Shown here: piece after piece, positions 20,184 to 29,803 of the stretch | How the letters are laid out: each line of letters begins with the position of its first letter | How positions within the stretch are numbered: the stretch's first letter is position 1 | Assembly (NCBI GenBank): GCA_001512625.1 | Contig: LFTD01000036.1 | Coordinates: forward strand, 13,259 to 49,728 | Source: Clostridiales bacterium DTU036 | GTDB lineage: Bacteria; Bacillota; Clostridia; Peptostreptococcales; Acidaminobacteraceae | Reading direction: 5' to 3' | Length of the DNA: 36,470 nt | The notes under the pieces: model-generated | What the model was told of the DNA's origin: nothing | Databases searched by the model: none | Seen by the model: the letters and a program-made list of their open reading frames with translations, nothing else | Translations under genes and position numbers: made by a program

Positions 20184-21149
20184 ATGATACTTGCAGATAA
20201 GATTATGTTTCATAGGAAAAAACTTGGCATGACGCAGGAAGAGCTAGCCCAAGAACTTAATGTATCTAGGCAGGCAGTCTCCAAATGGGAGGGAGCTCAG
20301 TCTATACCTGGGATTATTCAGCTTATAGTATCTTTTCTCTTAGTGTGGATTATTTGGTTAAGGATGAACTTGAAGACCCTGAATATGTCCAAGGTAGGGA
20401 GAATACTGGTTTTAGGAGGCTAAGCCTGGAGACTGCCAGTGAGTTTATTGAGGCTAATGAGCTCTATGCAAGTAAAATAGCCCTTGGAGTCTTTTTATCA
20501 ATTAGCTCAGCTATTACTTTAGTTTTCCTAGATGCTCTTGGAGCAGGGGGCTATCTTTCTGTAAACAAGGAGCTGCTAAGTACCCTGGGCATAATAGTCA
20601 TATTTTTACTAGTAAGCCTGGCAGTGGGAATCTTTATTCGTTCAGCTAGCATAATTAGCCGCTATAACTATCTTAAGACCGAGATTCTAGATAGGGATTA
20701 TGGAGTTGATAGTGTGCTTAGGCAAAGGCAAGAGGATTATAAAGCTAGCCATAGTAAAAAACAGGCCTTTGGTGTTAGCCTGCTGATTCTTTCGGTGATT
20801 CCTGTTTTAATTTCAGAGCTATTAAAACAACGGTCCTTTTTTAGAAACCACAGGAGTACCCCTATTCTTACTTCTAGTGGCCAGCGGTGTATATGTCCTT
20901 GTAAAGACATCAATCTATATGGCTTCCTTTTCTATTCTATTGGAGGAAGGCGACTATAGCCCTAGTAAGAAGGAGAAAGCCAAAATAGGCGAAAGGGTTG
21001 CTGGTGTTTATTGGCTTAGTGCTGTAGCGCTTTATCTTTCCTGGTCTTTTATAACAGGGGGTTGGGATAGGACCTGGATTATCTGGCCAATTGCAGGAGT
21101 GGGCTTTGGCCTTGTTAGTGTAATTGTATCGATTATTATTGATGACTAG
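20184..21149 (+). pseudogene. XRE-family HTH regulator with C-terminal membrane domain, broken by at least two frameshifts
   Basis: Frame 1 gives MILADKIMFHRKKLGMTQEELAQELNVSRQAVSKWEGAQSIPGIIQL; a second frame continues IFSLSVDYLVKDELEDPEYV... ; a third frame from about 20850 gives VPLFLLLVASGVYVLVKTSIYMA...WPIAGVGFGLVSVIVSIIIDD. Confidence 0.8.
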
Positions 21150-21210: not shown

Positions 21211-23052
21211 CTACTTGTCTATTTCTTTCTTATTTTGCCTTTCAAACCCACCATGGCTGCTTATAGGTAGGACCATGATGGAATCAAAGCTAAGATCCTT
21301 TTCGTTTAGGAAGGCCTGGGTCATGTTCTGGGTCAATCCAGCATCTATAGCTAGAAGCACCACTTCCTTTTCAGGATCAATCTTAAGGCTGTAACCTGAA
21401 AGGGCATGGACCCTGGCGTCCCGGCCGTGGAGGACTGTAGCTCCCTGGGCTCCCTGGTCTCTAGCAAGATTGATTAGGTCCTGGGCCTTGCCTTTTGGAA
21501 GGACTATAAAGACCAGATCTTTATGGTAATCTTGGACTTCAATGGTATCAAGAATTGTATCACTATCCCCCTCTATTAGCATTCTATCCTCCTGCTTCTT
21601 ATTCCTGTGGGCAACAATGGTGCCTAGAATCATTAGACTCAGTACCGGAGCCATGGCTATCATAGCGATAACTCCAAAGCCATCAACAAGGACATTGGCA
21701 GTTGGTATCATGTCTGCTGCTCCCTGGGCAAAGGCCAGGACGAAGGTGGCAGACATGGGCCCTGAGGCGACTCCTCCAGCGTCATAGGCAATACCTACAA
21801 AGATTGGTTCTGCAAAAAAAGATAGGATTACTGCTATGGTAAAGCCTGGCAGCAGGAAGTACCAGAGTTTAAGTGAAGGGATCATTATTCTAAGGGTAGA
21901 AAGTGCAATTGCCGAGCCCACCCCAATTGACAGGGTAAGCCTGATTAATTTTATGGGGATAGCTCCGGCAGAGACCTCCCTTATTTGTTCTCCAAGAACA
22001 TGAACCGCCGGTTCTGCCAGCACAACTATAAGCCCGGTTAAGAAGCCAAAGAGGGGTAGGAGCAGGGTGTGGTTCTCTGCAATTCCCATCCCGATAAGCC
22101 TGCCCATATCCATAAAGCCATGGTTGGCTCCTACAAGAAAGAAGGTCAGGCCTAGGAAGGTATAGATCAGTCCCCTAATTATTCCTATTAATTCTTTCTT
22201 ACTCAGCTTAAAGCTCCTGTAGTTAAAGAAAAAGAAGAGCAGGGCAATGGGGCCAAGAGCTCTTAAGGAGTCTAAAAGGGTTCCAGGGATACTTCTAAAA
22301 AGTGGACCTAGAATCCCAGCTTCTTGGACAAAGGCCTGGGCCTGGCCCTGGATATGGGTCTGGCCGGTAAGGATGGCCATAATCATTACTGCAGGCATGG
22401 GGCCTGCAGACATGGCCCCTACCATTCCAAAGGCGTCTTCTTCTGACTTAGCCCCTCCTTTAACCTTGGCTAATCCTAAGGAGATGGCTAGGATAAAGGG
22501 GGTGGTCAGGGCCCCTGTTGTGGCTCCTGAGGCGTCAAAGGAGATGGCTACAAACTCCTCGGCCACAAAAACTGCCAGGATAAAGATGAAAAGATAGATC
22601 GAAGCCATTAGGACATTGTACTTTTTATTCATCAGGATCTGCAGGGAGGCCAGGGTAACCATGATACCTACTCCTACTGAAACTAGGGCCACCATGGCAG
22701 GGCCTGAAATTTGCCCTCCAGAAGCTAGCTCCACCTGGGAACCTAGAATAATTAAGTCAGGTTCTGCAATATTTATTAGAAAGCCCAGTAAAAAGGCTAA
22801 AATTAAAGCCTTAAGTAATTTTTTAGAACCTGCCAGTTCTGAGGCCATGTAAAAGCCAATGGGGTTCATAGACTGGTCCACCCCCCAAAGGAAGATGGAA
22901 AGGCCCACAAATAGGAAGGCTGCACCAGCTAGGAATCTAAGTATAACTTGGTAGTCAATATCAACTAGTCCAAAGATAATTAAGAGAACTAGGATTACTA
23001 TGGGAAAGAGAGACTGGCCTACTTCCCTAACTTTTTCTTGAAGTAGATTCAT
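21211..23052 (-). CDS. DUF1538 family membrane protein (two internal half-repeats) with C-terminal PII-like domain
   Basis: Repeats NIAEPDLIILGSQVELASGG / VLAEPAVHVLGEQIREVSAG and FDASGATTGALTTPFILAISLG / YDAGGVASGPMSATFVLAFAQG; C-terminal LVFIVLPKGKAQDLINLARDQGAQGATVLHGR resembles the neighbouring PII-like domains. Confidence 0.8.
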   Translation of the reverse strand: MNLLQEKVREVGQSLFPIVILVLLIIFGLVDIDYQVILRFLAGAAFLFVGLSIFLWGVDQSMNPIGFYMASELAGSKKLLKALILAFLLGFLINIAEPDLIILGSQVELASGGQISGPAMVALVSVGVGIMVTLASLQILMNKKYNVLMASIYLFIFILAVFVAEEFVAISFDASGATTGALTTPFILAISLGLAKVKGGAKSEEDAFGMVGAMSAGPMPAVMIMAILTGQTHIQGQAQAFVQEAGILGPLFRSIPGTLLDSLRALGPIALLFFFFNYRSFKLSKKELIGIIRGLIYTFLGLTFFLVGANHGFMDMGRLIGMGIAENHTLLLPLFGFLTGLIVVLAEPAVHVLGEQIREVSAGAIPIKLIRLTLSIGVGSAIALSTLRIMIPSLKLWYFLLPGFTIAVILSFFAEPIFVGIAYDAGGVASGPMSATFVLAFAQGAADMIPTANVLVDGFGVIAMIAMAPVLSLMILGTIVAHRNKKQEDRMLIEGDSDTILDTIEVQDYHKDLVFIVLPKGKAQDLINLARDQGAQGATVLHGRDARVHALSGYSLKIDPEKEVVLLAIDAGLTQNMTQAFLNEKDLSFDSIMVLPISSHGGFERQNKKEIDK

Positions 23053-23053
23053 T

Positions 23054-23707
23054 TTAACCCTCTTTCGTATTTCTAAAGAGGCCTGTGGCCCTGGTCACAG
23101 GCAGGGAGAAGATTACGCCCTTGCCTTCTTGATTAAGCTGCATTTTTTCAATTATCTGGTCCTGGACCCTATCTGCGATTGGGGAGGATACGATAAAAAA
23201 GACCAGGTCCTTTTGAGGCTCAACAAGGAGGTCAAAAAAAGAATCCTGGGGAACACCGGCTCCTCTTCCGGGAATTATGGTGCCACCTGCGGCTCCGGCC
23301 TCTCTAGCATGAAGAACACAGTCCTTAGCCTGGCCCTTATCAAGGATTGAAATAATACACTGATAGTCGCAGGAGGCCGGGTCGGGTCTCTGGCCCTTTT
23401 CATAGTAGGTTATACTTTGGAATTGGGTTAGGGGCAGAGAAAAGGAAATACCTCTGTGTTTCTTGTCAATCTTAAAATGTTTACGCATAAGTTCGTGGAG
23501 GGTATCCTCAAAGCTTGAGGATATTGGCATGAAGATAAGGTCTTTTTGGGACTCATTAAGGCCAAAGAACTCCAGCCATTTATTAAATACCGTACCCTCA
23601 CCAAGGAGGACTACCCCTCCTCCTAGGCCAAAGGCCTGCATTTGTTTAAGGACAGCTTCGGACTGGCCCTTATTTACTACACTTACAAATATTGTTTGGG
23701 GTAACAT
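23054..23707 (-). CDS. Protein with two tandem PII-like domains
   Basis: Domain 1 TIFVSVVNKGQSEAVLKQMQAFGLGGGVVLLGEG...KDLIFMPIS...GISFSLPL; domain 2 QCIISILDKGQAKDCVLHAREAGAAGGTIIPGRG...KDLVFFIVS...GVIFSLPV. 1-nt spacing to the DUF1538 gene. Confidence 0.8.
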   Translation of the reverse strand: MLPQTIFVSVVNKGQSEAVLKQMQAFGLGGGVVLLGEGTVFNKWLEFFGLNESQKDLIFMPISSSFEDTLHELMRKHFKIDKKHRGISFSLPLTQFQSITYYEKGQRPDPASCDYQCIISILDKGQAKDCVLHAREAGAAGGTIIPGRGAGVPQDSFFDLLVEPQKDLVFFIVSSPIADRVQDQIIEKMQLNQEGKGVIFSLPVTRATGLFRNTKEG

Positions 23708-23736
23708 TATTTACCTCACCTAATTTACAGACTAGT

Positions 23737-24609
23737 TTATAGACTTCTATAGGCTTCCTTTCTTAGATTGGGATGTGAATCAATCAAATAGTGATTTATT
23801 GTTGCTATGATTTTGTCTTTATCCTGGTCAAGTATACCAGCCAGGCCTAAATAATTTGAGGCATGGTTAGACCTAAAGGTTATACCCTTGGCCTCCACTT
23901 GGCAAACAAAAAGTTTTGTTTCTTCTAGGACTTGAAGGGGGGTTAGGGGAAGAAAGTCTCCCCTTTTTATCTCTAAATCAAGCTCTGTGCCTGGTTCTTG
24001 CATTAGGGTCAGAAGGCCCAAGTAATGGGGCTCCATTTGATTAATAAGTTTTGCGCTTTCCACTGCATGCTCATGACTAAGCTCCTGGCCTCCTAGGCCT
24101 GAGATCATGGTTACAGAAAGTAGGATACCTGCCTCTTTAACCTTTTTTGCCTGGTCAAGGATTTCCTGGGCACTGGCCCCCTTATTTACTTTTTTAAGGA
24201 TAAGGTCGCTGCCGCTTTCCATACCCAGGTAGATGATACCTAGGCCCAGCTCTTTAAGCTCTTTTAGTTGATCTACAGTTTTGGTAGCTAGGCTTTTTGG
24301 AGAAGCATAGATGCCTGTCCTCTTATTAGCTGGAAAGGAGCTGGAAATTTTCTTTAGTATAGTTTTAAGATCATCCATGCTCATAATAAGGGCGTCGCCA
24401 TCGCCTAAAAAAACCCTCTTATAAACATTTGCATATATACTCATGGAGTCCAGGTCAGCTAGGATTTCATTAAGTGGCCTGATTCTAAATTGGTCTTCTT
24501 TATACATGCTACAAAAGCTGCATTTATTATGTGAGCATCCTATGGTGCACTGTATGATTAGGCTTGAAGCCTCAGAGGGAGGCCTAAATACCTTACCTTG
24601 GTAGTTCAT
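23737..24609 (-). CDS. Radical SAM protein
   Basis: CTIGCSHNKCSFC (CX..CXXC cluster motif), RIRPLNEILADLDSM, GDGDALIM, GLGIIYLGMESGSDLILKKVNKG. Confidence 0.88.
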   Translation of the reverse strand: MNYQGKVFRPPSEASSLIIQCTIGCSHNKCSFCSMYKEDQFRIRPLNEILADLDSMSIYANVYKRVFLGDGDALIMSMDDLKTILKKISSSFPANKRTGIYASPKSLATKTVDQLKELKELGLGIIYLGMESGSDLILKKVNKGASAQEILDQAKKVKEAGILLSVTMISGLGGQELSHEHAVESAKLINQMEPHYLGLLTLMQEPGTELDLEIKRGDFLPLTPLQVLEETKLFVCQVEAKGITFRSNHASNYLGLAGILDQDKDKIIATINHYLIDSHPNLRKEAYRSL

Positions 24610-24978: not shown

Positions 24979-25031
24979 ATTAAATATCACCAATACTTTA
25001 ACAAAAAGTAATGAAGGGAAGGAGTTTATTT

Positions 25032-26198
25032 ATGAGACGCAAGAGATTTTTAAGTTTTTTCTTAGTTATGCTACTGGTTTTACCAACGCTATTTAGTTGT
25101 GGTAAATCTGAAGACACAGTTGTTATTGGTTACATAGGAGACCTCTCTGGTGAAGATGCTTACGTTGGTGTACCCCCTCAGCTTTTCCTAAAGGACTACT
25201 TCGAGCAATTGAATAAAGAAGGAGGAATTTTAGGAAAGCAAGTTAAATTTGTTGCTTATGATATGCAACCTGATAATGCAGTCGATGGTTCTTTAGCTGC
25301 GAATCGCCTTATAAACGAGGATAAAGCTATAGCAATTATTGGACCTTCATCAAGCTCTGCGGCTATCCCCATGGCAGAGATATGTGGACAAGCTAAGGTA
25401 CCTTTTATTGCCACTTCTGCTACTAATGAGAAGGTTACAATTGCAGAAGATGGTTCACTTAATTCATATGCATTTAGAGTGTGCTTTATTGATTCATATC
25501 AAGGTACTGCTGCAGCAAATTTTGCTTATGATAAGGGAATTAGAAAGGTGGGAATGATTGAGACACTTGGCAATCCTTACTCCCAAAATATTTGCGATTT
25601 TTTTGCTGAACAGTTTGAACTCTTAGGAGGGGAAGTAGTAAGCAGGATAGGTGTTCAGGCTCAAGATGTTGAGTTTCGCGCTCAGCTCACAAATTTTGGT
25701 AGTGCAGGGATTGATGCCTTATTTTTCCCAAGTGGTACATATAAGCTTCCTTCTTTAGTTGCTAACCAAGCTGCGGATTTAAATTTGGATTTCAAATATA
25801 TTTTCACAGATGGAGTATATGATGATACCCTTCTTGAAGTTGCCGGTCCTAATATTGAGGGAGCTATCATGACTAATTACCTATTTGGAGATGATCCAGC
25901 TTATGATGAATTTAGAGATGAATATAACGCTAAGCATAAAGAGTATTCAGCAAACATCTTTGTATATCTAGCATATGATGCAGTTGAGTTACTAATGCAT
26001 GCTATTAAAGAATCAAATAGCCTTGATCCAGTTGAAATACAGAAGGCTCTTGAGAATGCAACTGATGTGGAGTTATTTACTGATAAGCATTTTACAGTAG
26101 ATCCTAAAACCCACAATCCTCTTAATAAGATGGTTGCAATCATAGGAGTCGAAGACGGTAAGTTCACATTAATTGAGAATTATTACCCAACAGAATAA
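25032..26198 (+). CDS. Branched-chain amino acid-type ABC transporter substrate-binding lipoprotein; start at ATG 25032
   Basis: Lipobox LPTLFSC; VVIGYIGDLSGEDAYVG...NKEGGILGKQVKFVAYD; Peripla_BP_6 type. Confidence 0.9.
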   Translation: MRRKRFLSFFLVMLLVLPTLFSCGKSEDTVVIGYIGDLSGEDAYVGVPPQLFLKDYFEQLNKEGGILGKQVKFVAYDMQPDNAVDGSLAANRLINEDKAIAIIGPSSSSAAIPMAEICGQAKVPFIATSATNEKVTIAEDGSLNSYAFRVCFIDSYQGTAAANFAYDKGIRKVGMIETLGNPYSQNICDFFAEQFELLGGEVVSRIGVQAQDVEFRAQLTNFGSAGIDALFFPSGTYKLPSLVANQAADLNLDFKYIFTDGVYDDTLLEVAGPNIEGAIMTNYLFGDDPAYDEFRDEYNAKHKEYSANIFVYLAYDAVELLMHAIKESNSLDPVEIQKALENATDVELFTDKHFTVDPKTHNPLNKMVAIIGVEDGKFTLIENYYPTE

Positions 26199-26231
26199 TT
26201 GAAAAGGCCCTTCTTTAAGTGATATTTGATT

Positions 26232-26268
26232 ATTTGTGCAATGGATTCAAATAATCCATTGCACAAAT
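26232..26268. promoter_or_regulatory. Perfect 16-bp inverted repeat between livK-like and livH-like genes
   Basis: atttgtgcaatggatt - caaat - aatccattgcacaaat. Confidence 0.85.
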
Positions 26269-26469
26269 TGTATTTTAAGATAAATTATTTTGAATAAATC
26301 GAATTATATGGTGTTCCAAAATTTGGCAAATTATCTCATCATATTATAGATCTAATTTTAATCAAGCTAAGGTATTAGTAAATTTATAATTTTGAGTGAT
26401 ATGCAAAATAAGAGCGGATTTTCTATATTGTAGAAAAGTATATGCTTTATATCGAGTGAAAGGATTGGT

Positions 26470-27348
26470 TTGAATATGACTATAATTCAGCAAATGATCA
26501 CAAGCGTATCTGTGGGAGGCCTTTATGCAGTGCTTGCGGTCGGATATGCGTTAATATACAGTGTGTTCGATTTCACTAACTTCGCATTCGGTGGAATAAT
26601 GATGGTTTCAGCCTTCTCAGGATATTTTGTATCTAATGCTGGATTTGGAACCATCGCGTCTATGATTGCTGCAATTGTGACAGGGATATTAGTGTCAATA
26701 GCGGTTGAATTATTGGCTTATAGGCCTATGCGTAAGAAAAATGCTAAAAGATTATTTTTAATGATATCAGCTATGGGTGTTAATATTTTTCTCACAAATC
26801 TATACCTTAGCCTTTTTGGTGCGAATCTCCGAACTCTTCCTAGCGGGTTTAAGGCTAATACGATTTCAATAATGAATGTGCAGATAGGAACTGTAGATAT
26901 TGCTGCGTTTTTGACATCTATGGTTGCTTTAGGTATTCTAACTTTTTTTCTTTATAAAACAAGATCAGGTATTACAGTTAGAGCCAGTGCTACTGATATT
27001 TCTACAGCAGGACTTATGGGAATAAATGTAAATAAGGTGTCTTTAATTGTATTTATTATTTCTGGGACAACGGCTGCAATTGCAGGAATGTTTTTTGGTA
27101 TGAAATACACTGTCTATCCTGGGATGGGAGCTATGTCAACTAAAGCTTTTATTGCCAGTGTAATAGGAGGTCTTGGTAGTCTCCAAGGAGCAGTGTTAGG
27201 TGGATTTTTGTTGGGCATTATGGAAACTCTAGTCGCAGGATATATATCGGCTACCTACAGGGATCTTTTTTCATTTGGAATAATGATAGTTGTTTTGATG
27301 TTCATGCCCAATGGACTTGTAGGTAGGGGTGATCAGAGTAAACTATAG
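26470..27348 (+). CDS. Branched-chain amino acid-type ABC transporter permease (LivH-like)
   Basis: GGLYAVLAVGYALIYSVFDFTNFAFGGIMM; IGGLGSLQGAVLGGFLLGIMETL. TTG start at 26470 or ATG at 26476. Confidence 0.92.
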   Translation: MNMTIIQQMITSVSVGGLYAVLAVGYALIYSVFDFTNFAFGGIMMVSAFSGYFVSNAGFGTIASMIAAIVTGILVSIAVELLAYRPMRKKNAKRLFLMISAMGVNIFLTNLYLSLFGANLRTLPSGFKANTISIMNVQIGTVDIAAFLTSMVALGILTFFLYKTRSGITVRASATDISTAGLMGINVNKVSLIVFIISGTTAAIAGMFFGMKYTVYPGMGAMSTKAFIASVIGGLGSLQGAVLGGFLLGIMETLVAGYISATYRDLFSFGIMIVVLMFMPNGLVGRGDQSKL

Positions 27349-27357
27349 GAGGACAAA

Positions 27358-28275
27358 ATGTATATAGCTTCTGTTATTGTCACAGTATGTGCAAATATAA
27401 TATCGGTTATTGGTCTTGCACTTCTCACTGGATATACTGGTATGTTCTCACTAGGCCACGCTGGATTTATGGCTATTGGTGCATATGGTGCGGTGTTATT
27501 AAACAGGTATTATGCTGTTCCATATTTTTTAGCCCTGATATCTGGTGGGGTAATGGCCGCTTTTGTTAGTGTAATTATAGGCTATCCAACCCTTAGAAAT
27601 AAGCTTCGAGGAGACTATTTTGCTATTTGTATGCTGGGTTTTGGTACTGTAGTTCGCTTGATTTTAAATAACTTAAATAATCCAGTGATAAATGGAGCAT
27701 TGGGTTTACCAGGTATTCCTAAACTTACATCACTTTGGTCAGCTTTGTTTATTATGGCAATACTAGTTTACTTTATGTGGAACTTTGTTAATTCCCAATA
27801 CGGCAAGAACTGTGTTGCTGTGCAGCAACAGGAAGTAGCCGCAGAAATGATGGGAGTCAGCTTAGTAAAAACAAAGCTTTTATCTCTGGTGATTTCAGCG
27901 TTCTATTGCGGTGTTGCTGGTGGGGTGCTAGGCTTTTGGCTCCAATATATAGCCCCAGCTTCTTTTTCAGACACACGCTCAAATGATTTTTTAGCAACGC
28001 TTGTAACTGGAGGAACAAATAGTATAACTGGGCCATTTTTGGCAGCAATTCTTCTCACTACAATGCTTGAGTATCTAAGATTTTTGGTTAACTGGCGACT
28101 TGTTGTCTATGGACTACTGTATATTCTTGTAATGAGATTTAGACCAGAAGGGATTATGGGCTACAAAGAATTTTCACTTAAAAAAACAATTTTATTTTTC
28201 AAGGAGTTCCCGCAGAATATGGGAAAATTAAAGGGAAAATGGGTTGGCTTCTGGGAAAGTAGAAATAGAAACTGA
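27358..28275 (+). CDS. Branched-chain amino acid-type ABC transporter permease (LivM-like)
   Basis: LALLTGYTGMFSLGHAGFMAIGAYGAV; LVTGGTNSITGPFLAAILLT; RFRPEGIMG. Confidence 0.92.
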   Translation: MYIASVIVTVCANIISVIGLALLTGYTGMFSLGHAGFMAIGAYGAVLLNRYYAVPYFLALISGGVMAAFVSVIIGYPTLRNKLRGDYFAICMLGFGTVVRLILNNLNNPVINGALGLPGIPKLTSLWSALFIMAILVYFMWNFVNSQYGKNCVAVQQQEVAAEMMGVSLVKTKLLSLVISAFYCGVAGGVLGFWLQYIAPASFSDTRSNDFLATLVTGGTNSITGPFLAAILLTTMLEYLRFLVNWRLVVYGLLYILVMRFRPEGIMGYKEFSLKKTILFFKEFPQNMGKLKGKWVGFWESRNRN

Positions 28276-28292
28276 AGGGAGGGAGAAGAAAT

Positions 28293-29078
28293 ATGACTAG
28301 TTCTGAGAAGATACTTGAAGTCAATGATCTTGTAATCCGCTTTGGTGGTTTAACAGCCATTGATGGCGTAAATATGCATATAAATAAAGGAGAATTTGTA
28401 GGCCTTATTGGACCAAATGGTGCAGGAAAAACAACATTTTTTAATTCGATTACTGGAAATGTTACACCTTCAGAAGGCTCAATAAGTTTCAACGGGGAGT
28501 CTCTTTTAAAAAAGAGCCCTGATGTTATTTCCCATATGGGGATAAGCAGGACTTTTCAAAACATAAGAATTTTTCCTAAAATGACTGTGCTAGAGAATGT
28601 AAGTCTTCCTATGCACAGTAAGCCATCTTATAATTTCTTTTCGGCAATGTTAGGGTTACCTTCAGTAAAAAAAGCTGATAAGATAATCCAGGAAAAAGCC
28701 ATGGATTTCTTACATAGATTGGGAATTGCAGAGTATAAGGATTATGAAGCTGGTACATTACCATATGGGCTTCAGCGCAGACTTGAGATTGCCCGTGCCT
28801 TGGCTGCTGATCTTAGCCTACTACTTCTTGATGAACCGGCTGCTGGTATGAATAATGATGAGTGCAATGAACTTGTTGAGCTTCTTCAAGGTATACATGA
28901 AGATTTCGATATATCAATAATGCTCATTGAACACCATATTGATGTTGTTCTTAATCTTTGCAGTAGGATATATGTATTAAATTTAGGTCAATTACTTGCT
29001 GAAGGCCCTCCACATGAAATTCAGTCAAATCCTGATGTTATACGTGCATATCTAGGAGAAAGGAGGGAAGGGCGATGA
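28293..29078 (+). CDS. LivG-like ABC transporter ATP-binding protein
   Basis: VNDLVIRFGGLTAIDGVNMHINKGEFVGLIGPNGAGKTTFFNSITG; ISRTFQNIRIF; LPYGLQRRLEIARAL. Confidence 0.93.
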   Translation: MTSSEKILEVNDLVIRFGGLTAIDGVNMHINKGEFVGLIGPNGAGKTTFFNSITGNVTPSEGSISFNGESLLKKSPDVISHMGISRTFQNIRIFPKMTVLENVSLPMHSKPSYNFFSAMLGLPSVKKADKIIQEKAMDFLHRLGIAEYKDYEAGTLPYGLQRRLEIARALAADLSLLLLDEPAAGMNNDECNELVELLQGIHEDFDISIMLIEHHIDVVLNLCSRIYVLNLGQLLAEGPPHEIQSNPDVIRAYLGERREGR

Positions 29079-29803
29079 GTAAATTAGTTGAGATTAAAGA
29101 TTTGTATTCTTATTATGGCGGAATTTGCGCTTTAAATGGGGTTTCCCTGTATATAAACGAAGGAGAAATCACATCTATTGTAGGCTCGAATGGTGCGGGA
29201 AAATCTACTTTGATGCGGACCATAGCTGGGGATAAGCAGATTGACAGTGGAGAAATTTTAATGAATGGGGAACCATTACCTAAACTAGTTCATGATGTGG
29301 TTAATAGTGGAATCTCATTGGTGCCTGAAGGTAGGCATATTTTTCCAGCCCTTTCAGTGAGAGAGAATCTCATACTAGGTACATGTGCACTAAAGGGACA
29401 AGAATACAAAAGAGCTATGAGTGAAACGCTAGAAGAGGTAATCAGTCTTTTCCCTATACTCGGCAAAAGGATAAAGCAATCTGGAGGAACACTTTCTGGT
29501 GGGGAACAACAAATGCTGGCTATAGGTCGTGCATTGATGGCTCACCCAAAATTATTGTGCCTTGATGAGCCATCCCTAGGACTTGCTCCAATTATAATTG
29601 ACGAGGTTTTTGATAAAATAATTCAGCTAAATAAGGAAAAAAAGTTAACTGTGCTACTTGTTGAGCAAAATGCCTATCTTGCTCTTGATGTGTCAGATCG
29701 TGCTTATGTCCTTAATACAGGCCTAATCACCCTTGAAGGCACCGGCAAGGAGCTAGCTGAAAACCCAAGTGTTCAAGAAGAATATCTTGGTGTTACAAGA
29801 TAA
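29075..29803 (+). CDS. LivF-like ABC transporter ATP-binding protein
   Basis: VEIKDLYSYYGGICALNGVSLYINEGEITSIVGSNGAGKSTLMRTIAG; LSGGEQQMLAIGRALM; DEPSLGLAP. Confidence 0.93.
   Translation: MSKLVEIKDLYSYYGGICALNGVSLYINEGEITSIVGSNGAGKSTLMRTIAGDKQIDSGEILMNGEPLPKLVHDVVNSGISLVPEGRHIFPALSVRENLILGTCALKGQEYKRAMSETLEEVISLFPILGKRIKQSGGTLSGGEQQMLAIGRALMAHPKLLCLDEPSLGLAPIIIDEVFDKIIQLNKEKKLTVLLVEQNAYLALDVSDRAYVLNTGLITLEGTGKELAENPSVQEEYLGVTR

Follow-up and report, generated by a model that had tools for sequence, protein, structure and literature searches.

Two adjacent genes in a 36,470-nucleotide stretch of DNA from Clostridiales bacterium DTU036 (the window, by which we mean the whole stretch analysed) probably specify a secondary transporter under PII control, the likeliest candidate being an antiporter of the UmpAB (DUF1538) type that exchanges a monovalent cation for H+. 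In what follows, D denotes a DUF1538 unit, P a PII-like domain, and a comma separate genes. The ORF, Pfam family PF07556 and an AlphaFold model identify the first protein, DDP (613 aa; 21211..23052), as a transporter of two tandem DUF1538 units that ends in a PII-like domain. The second, PP (217 aa; 23054..23707), consists of two tandem PII-like domains, as assigned from its ORF, Pfam, AlphaFold and Foldseek. A third gene, at 23737..24609, encodes a 290-aa radical SAM protein that is adjacent to the pair and that we judge to lie outside the system, based on its PF04055 match and the positions of its orthologues. All three ORFs are present on the minus strand, as are the features described below unless marked (+), and they are as tightly packed as a sequence-only reading of this DNA had described, the intervals between them being 29 nt (23707-23737) and 1 nt (23052-23054). 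That reading had joined the three genes in one candidate PII-gated transport system. Its three PII-like domains, its link between DUF1538 and PII, its fused version of UmpAB and its architecture of two DUF1538 units to three PII-like domains stood up to analysis; its role for the radical SAM protein did not.

The PII-like domains of PP occupy residues 4-93 (PP1; 23429..23698) and 115-208 (PP2; 23084..23365). When PP was compared with PF00543, only the second half matched (E 7e-6; 26.8 bits against a cut-off of 25). The AlphaFold model of PP (pLDDT 86.6, pTM 0.83) contains two beta-alpha-beta/beta-alpha-beta units, and the best Foldseek matches in the PDB are PII proteins (2xzw, 2j9d and 4ozn), which bears out the PII-type fold that had been proposed for both domains. 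The C-terminal domain of DDP, hereafter F (residues 511-597; 21262..21522), had no Pfam match. This domain was, nonetheless, matched by the PP query in a whole-genome search (E 1.6e-8), and its best Foldseek matches were SbtB and CPII, with a probability of 1.00 but an E-value of only 0.03. The third PII-like domain expected at the end of the DUF1538 protein is therefore supported by both its PP match and its predicted fold, and the alignment of the three copies that had been made by eye proved right. PP2 carries the motif GRGAGVPxD...EPQKD, F is of the PP2 type, and PP1 belongs to a diverged paralogue clade in the domain tree. Within the PP-DDP clade, F, PP1 and PP2 each have their own conserved pattern.

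PII-type proteins accompany DUF1538 almost without exception in the window's phylum (Bacillota), where 139 of the 399 genomes have DUF1538. Scoring PII as present when a genome matched the tandem-PII profile at E<=1e-20, we found a strong PII-type match in 137 of the 139 DUF1538 genomes and in a single one of the 260 genomes without DUF1538; canonical PII proteins gave weaker matches only. The two exceptions are a genome with an apparent contig end just after DUF1538 (G364; L170) and a genome with weak DUF1538 matches only (G116). The two genes also lie together. Among the loci examined, which represent a subset of the 137 genomes, nearly all of the 80 named ones have a PII gene directly beside DUF1538 and in the same orientation, and this adjacency is found in loci of the phylum, Spirochaetota MAGs, Alphaproteobacteria and Peptoclostridium. 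In Clostridium sp. CF012 (L131 5980-7497), an exception to the pairing, the tandem DUF1538 gene lacks a PII neighbour within the stretch examined. In scans of genome contigs, an alignment-based DUF1538 query gave matches and the single-sequence PP query gave none. No neighbour other than DUF1538 and PII recurred at a fixed place in the neighbourhood survey. The earlier reading had named a lack of co-occurrence between DUF1538 and PII-like genes in other genomes as grounds for refutation, and the 137 of 139 genomes count against such a lack; the link is wider than that reading supposed, as PII is encoded by separate genes in most DUF1538 systems. Given the near-constant company of PII, a signal of the cell's state probably turns the family's activity on and off, and co-occurrence this close to total makes the regulation, the ligand and the true substrate of DUF1538 directly testable. 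Public annotation of three plasmid records already names PII genes beside DUF1538. The pairing is thus visible in public annotation without discussion in the literature that we searched: among 5.39 million open papers we found no description of the link, five mention DUF1538, and in the one of these that also has the term PII it belongs to an unrelated sequence motif.

The loci take the forms D,D,P; D,D,P,P; D,D,PP; DD,P,P; DD,PP; a single D with a single P; and the PP-DDP of the window. Of these, D,D,P, D,D,P,P and DD,PP are common. Across loci, the number of PII copies per DUF1538 pair ranges from one to three, such that three is special to one clade. We considered a rule of equal PII and DUF1538 numbers; it was ruled out by D,D,P (2:1) and PP-DDP (2:3). 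The DUF1538-PII pairs of other Bacillota (DD,PP; D,D,P; D,D,PP) have the same two families in adjacent genes. In the window's clade, by contrast, the gene order is reversed, the PII domains number three and one of them is fused. The ratio of two DUF1538 units to three PII domains, one of them fused, is conserved in PP-DDP, which forms a single clade of 35 loci (34 plus L096, at a contig end) with SH-aLRT 100. Its hosts are Clostridia-type (Bacillota) MAGs, Spirochaetota MAGs and Kallipyga gabonensis, and the genes overlap by 4 nt in 23 of the loci. The fusion thus has a single origin on this tree. When single PII domains were placed in a tree of their own (about 108 columns), each of the three copies forms its own clade, the PP1 domains stand apart from the rest, and F groups with the second domains. 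Placing F with the clade's own PP2 gave the better likelihood (p-AU 0.73), while joining F to PP1 was marginally rejected (p-AU 0.049). Two loci hold tandem copies, DD-PP-DD-PP (L132 3639-8140 and L199 3-3645), and loss of the first DD and one PP1 from such an array would be a possible route to PP-DDP.

Several loci depart from these patterns. In Enterococcus lemanii (L143 7469-8121), the two PII domains are two genes beside a tandem DUF1538 gene. Three contigs, G001:C212 (L056), G002:C7 (L058) and G059:C12 (L076), have a single DUF1538 gene and a single PII gene with no second DUF1538 in the stretch; a lone seven-segment DUF1538 protein of this kind would need dual membrane topology. Finally, in one genus, two species have PP-DDP (G000:C79 and G001:C66 (L055)) and a third has DD-PP (G002:C93 (L057)). 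The two types lie on distant branches of the DUF1538 tree, a pattern suggestive of horizontal exchange.

The copy number bears on how the PII-like domains would assemble. One possibility is a true trimer like those of AmtB and SbtA, in which three DDP and three PP chains associate and F, PP1 and PP2 are each homotrimeric, the transporter still being PII-regulated. We regard this as a serious possibility, albeit one that we would not presume. It agrees with the 3:3 stoichiometry of the known PII-transporter complexes (PMC10117731) and with the relatives that have one PII per DUF1538 pair or a single D and a single P, since in these trimerisation could occur only across chains. However, the three copies are separately conserved and have diverged in their loop motifs, and three per transporter is the number required for one trimer. 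Neither side of this evidence is decisive. Alternatively, and we put this forward tentatively, the three non-identical domains could form an obligate 1:1 hetero-pseudo-trimer that gates the DUF1538 antiporter, with distinct sites and possibly different signals. If so, a symmetric PII switch would have been turned into one with distinct sites. PP-DDP would be a naturally occurring asymmetric assembly of PII domains, fused to the protein on which it acts, and would help explain PII control of transporters, in a setting of anaerobic gut and digester bacteria that includes the cultured K. gabonensis.

We turn to the transporter. DDP matched PF07556 in two stretches (E 8e-119; 394.9 bits against a curated cut-off of 22.6). 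In its AlphaFold model (pLDDT 88.7, pTM 0.79), residues 1-496 form the membrane part, from which a linker of low confidence leads to a small alpha/beta domain (511-597). The first DUF1538 half spans residues 1-230 (22363..23052) and the second residues 249-496 (21565..22308), both delimited by Pfam, topology and AlphaFold; the linker (residues 497-510; 21523..21564) has pLDDT <50 at 497-507 and is probably flexible. Hydropathy analysis revealed 14 segments, and Lys+Arg counts under the positive-inside rule in 70 sequences favour a cytoplasmic location for both the N- and C-termini of DDP. With both termini inside, the two seven-segment halves are predicted to have opposed orientations in the membrane, and the fused PII domain is predicted to be cytosolic. 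The model and alignment place acidic residues at equivalent helix breaks in the two halves. E97 (codon 22762..22764), in an AEP motif, is invariant and a candidate cation/H+ site, and E347 (22012..22014) is its AEP counterpart in the second half. D173 (22534..22536), near a helix break in FDASGATTG, is almost invariant and has its counterpart in D424 (21781..21783), the motif of this pair being DASG/DAGG. Both pairs are invariant or almost so across tandem halves and single DUF1538 proteins, in counts that include near-identical sequences. These residues, together with the opposite predicted topology, fit a cation/H+ antiporter like UmpAB.

UmpAB of Halomonas zhaodongensis is a pair of DUF1538 units with seven predicted TM segments each, of the same family as DDP, for which Na+(Li+,K+)/H+ antiport was measured in E. 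coli membranes (PMC5484666). The sequence-only reading had pointed to this report; the paper is real, and the view of DDP as a fused UmpAB is supported. In DDP, both units are in one chain, a PII-like domain is fused C-terminally and the partner is a tandem PII protein. DDP matched the NCBIfam models of UmpA and UmpB (NF041627 and NF041628) at E about 1e-41, with 139.9 and 141.3 bits, far below the equivalog cut-offs of 490 and 500 set for the separate proteins. The ORFs listed for the clone that gave antiport in E. coli include no PII gene (PMC5484666), indicating that PII is dispensable for activity. We also weighed whether DUF1538 proteins carry something other than Na+, Li+ or K+ (ammonium, bicarbonate or an organic ion, for example), with the cation tolerance of UmpAB a side activity. 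PII proteins usually partner with transporters of nitrogen or carbon, no PDB structure matched the DUF1538 region of DDP by sequence or by fold and none in a viral library by fold, and the family's function rests on one paper, in which the transporter was studied without a PII partner. We nevertheless think another substrate unlikely: antiport was directly measured on UmpAB (PMC5484666), the acidic residues at the helix breaks are conserved in all members seen, and DUF1538 is listed, alongside Mrp and K+ transport genes, among genes predictive of growth pH (PMC13255231).

In the PII-regulated antiporter that we favour, the two DUF1538 halves, elsewhere the separate genes UmpA and UmpB, would be joined and lie in the membrane in opposite orientation, and the invariant Glu and almost invariant Asp at the helix breaks of each half probably bind the cation or proton. 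Of the PII-like domains, one is tethered to the transporter and two belong to the partner made just upstream; all three would bind the cytoplasmic face of the transporter and adjust its activity to a small-molecule signal, much as GlnK acts on AmtB and SbtB acts on SbtA. The fusion supports this reading, since it shows a PII domain working within the same protein as the transporter. SbtA-SbtB likewise pairs a transporter, for bicarbonate, with a cytoplasmic PII-like regulator, and SbtB is among the best matches of F; however, SbtB is a homotrimer whereas the PII domains here are tandem and fused, and DUF1538 has no detected kinship to solved structures. In GlnK-AmtB, a PII gene similarly sits beside a transporter gene and GlnK acts on the cytoplasmic face (PMC10117731), but the transporter family is unrelated, and the DUF1538 systems have two or three diverged PII copies that have lost canonical B-loop residues. 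Against our explanation stand antiport by UmpAB without PII, the scores of DDP far below the equivalog cut-offs, the loss in the B-loop and a PII copy number that varies from one to three.

The B-loop change also bears on the signal. Canonical GlnB and GlnK bind ATP phosphate through a B-loop of the form TGxxGDGK/RIF. The PII copies analysed here lack its Lys/Arg and have GIIF in place of GDGRIF; the PP2 consensus is xxGxGIIF, with Ile in the position of the Lys/Arg. This loss makes sensing of ATP and 2-oxoglutarate of the classical kind doubtful, and the sequences suggest that another nucleotide or metabolite is the more likely ligand. Compared with canonical PII, the PP2-type copies have kept the glycine-rich loop motifs and an acidic-Pro-x-Lys element. 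It is quite improbable that the PII domains are merely scaffold or stabilising parts that sense no ligand: although the missing Lys/Arg and the degenerate ligand loops of F and PP1 would accord with such a role, the loop motifs of the PP2-type copies (GRGxG, EPEK/EPQK and GxGIIF) are strongly conserved.

The remaining gene of the three matches PF04055 at E 2e-20, and most relatives have an orthologue. Among the loci surveyed, this gene lies beside DUF1538 and PII only in the window genome and in another species of the genus (L079). We consider it highly improbable that the radical SAM protein modifies the PII protein or the transporter and that the three genes are one functional set, because adjacency is absent from every other PP-DDP or DD-PP locus examined and relatives have the orthologue elsewhere, including a congener (G002) in which it and the DUF1538 genes are on different contigs. 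The partnership, first drawn from adjacency, was accordingly rejected on the neighbourhood survey, and we treat the radical SAM gene as a chance neighbour.

Two further regions flank these genes. At 20285-21149 (+), ORFs of 224 and 90 aa overlap in different frames; both encode membrane-like segments with no Pfam match above cut-off, and together they may be a single frameshifted membrane protein gene. On the other side, a region at 25011-29803 (+), some 400 bases away from the radical SAM gene and on the opposite strand, begins with a Pfam-checked Peripla_BP_6 substrate-binding protein. It is followed by ORFs whose translations, as read, resemble the permeases and ATPases of a liv-type branched-chain amino acid ABC transporter.
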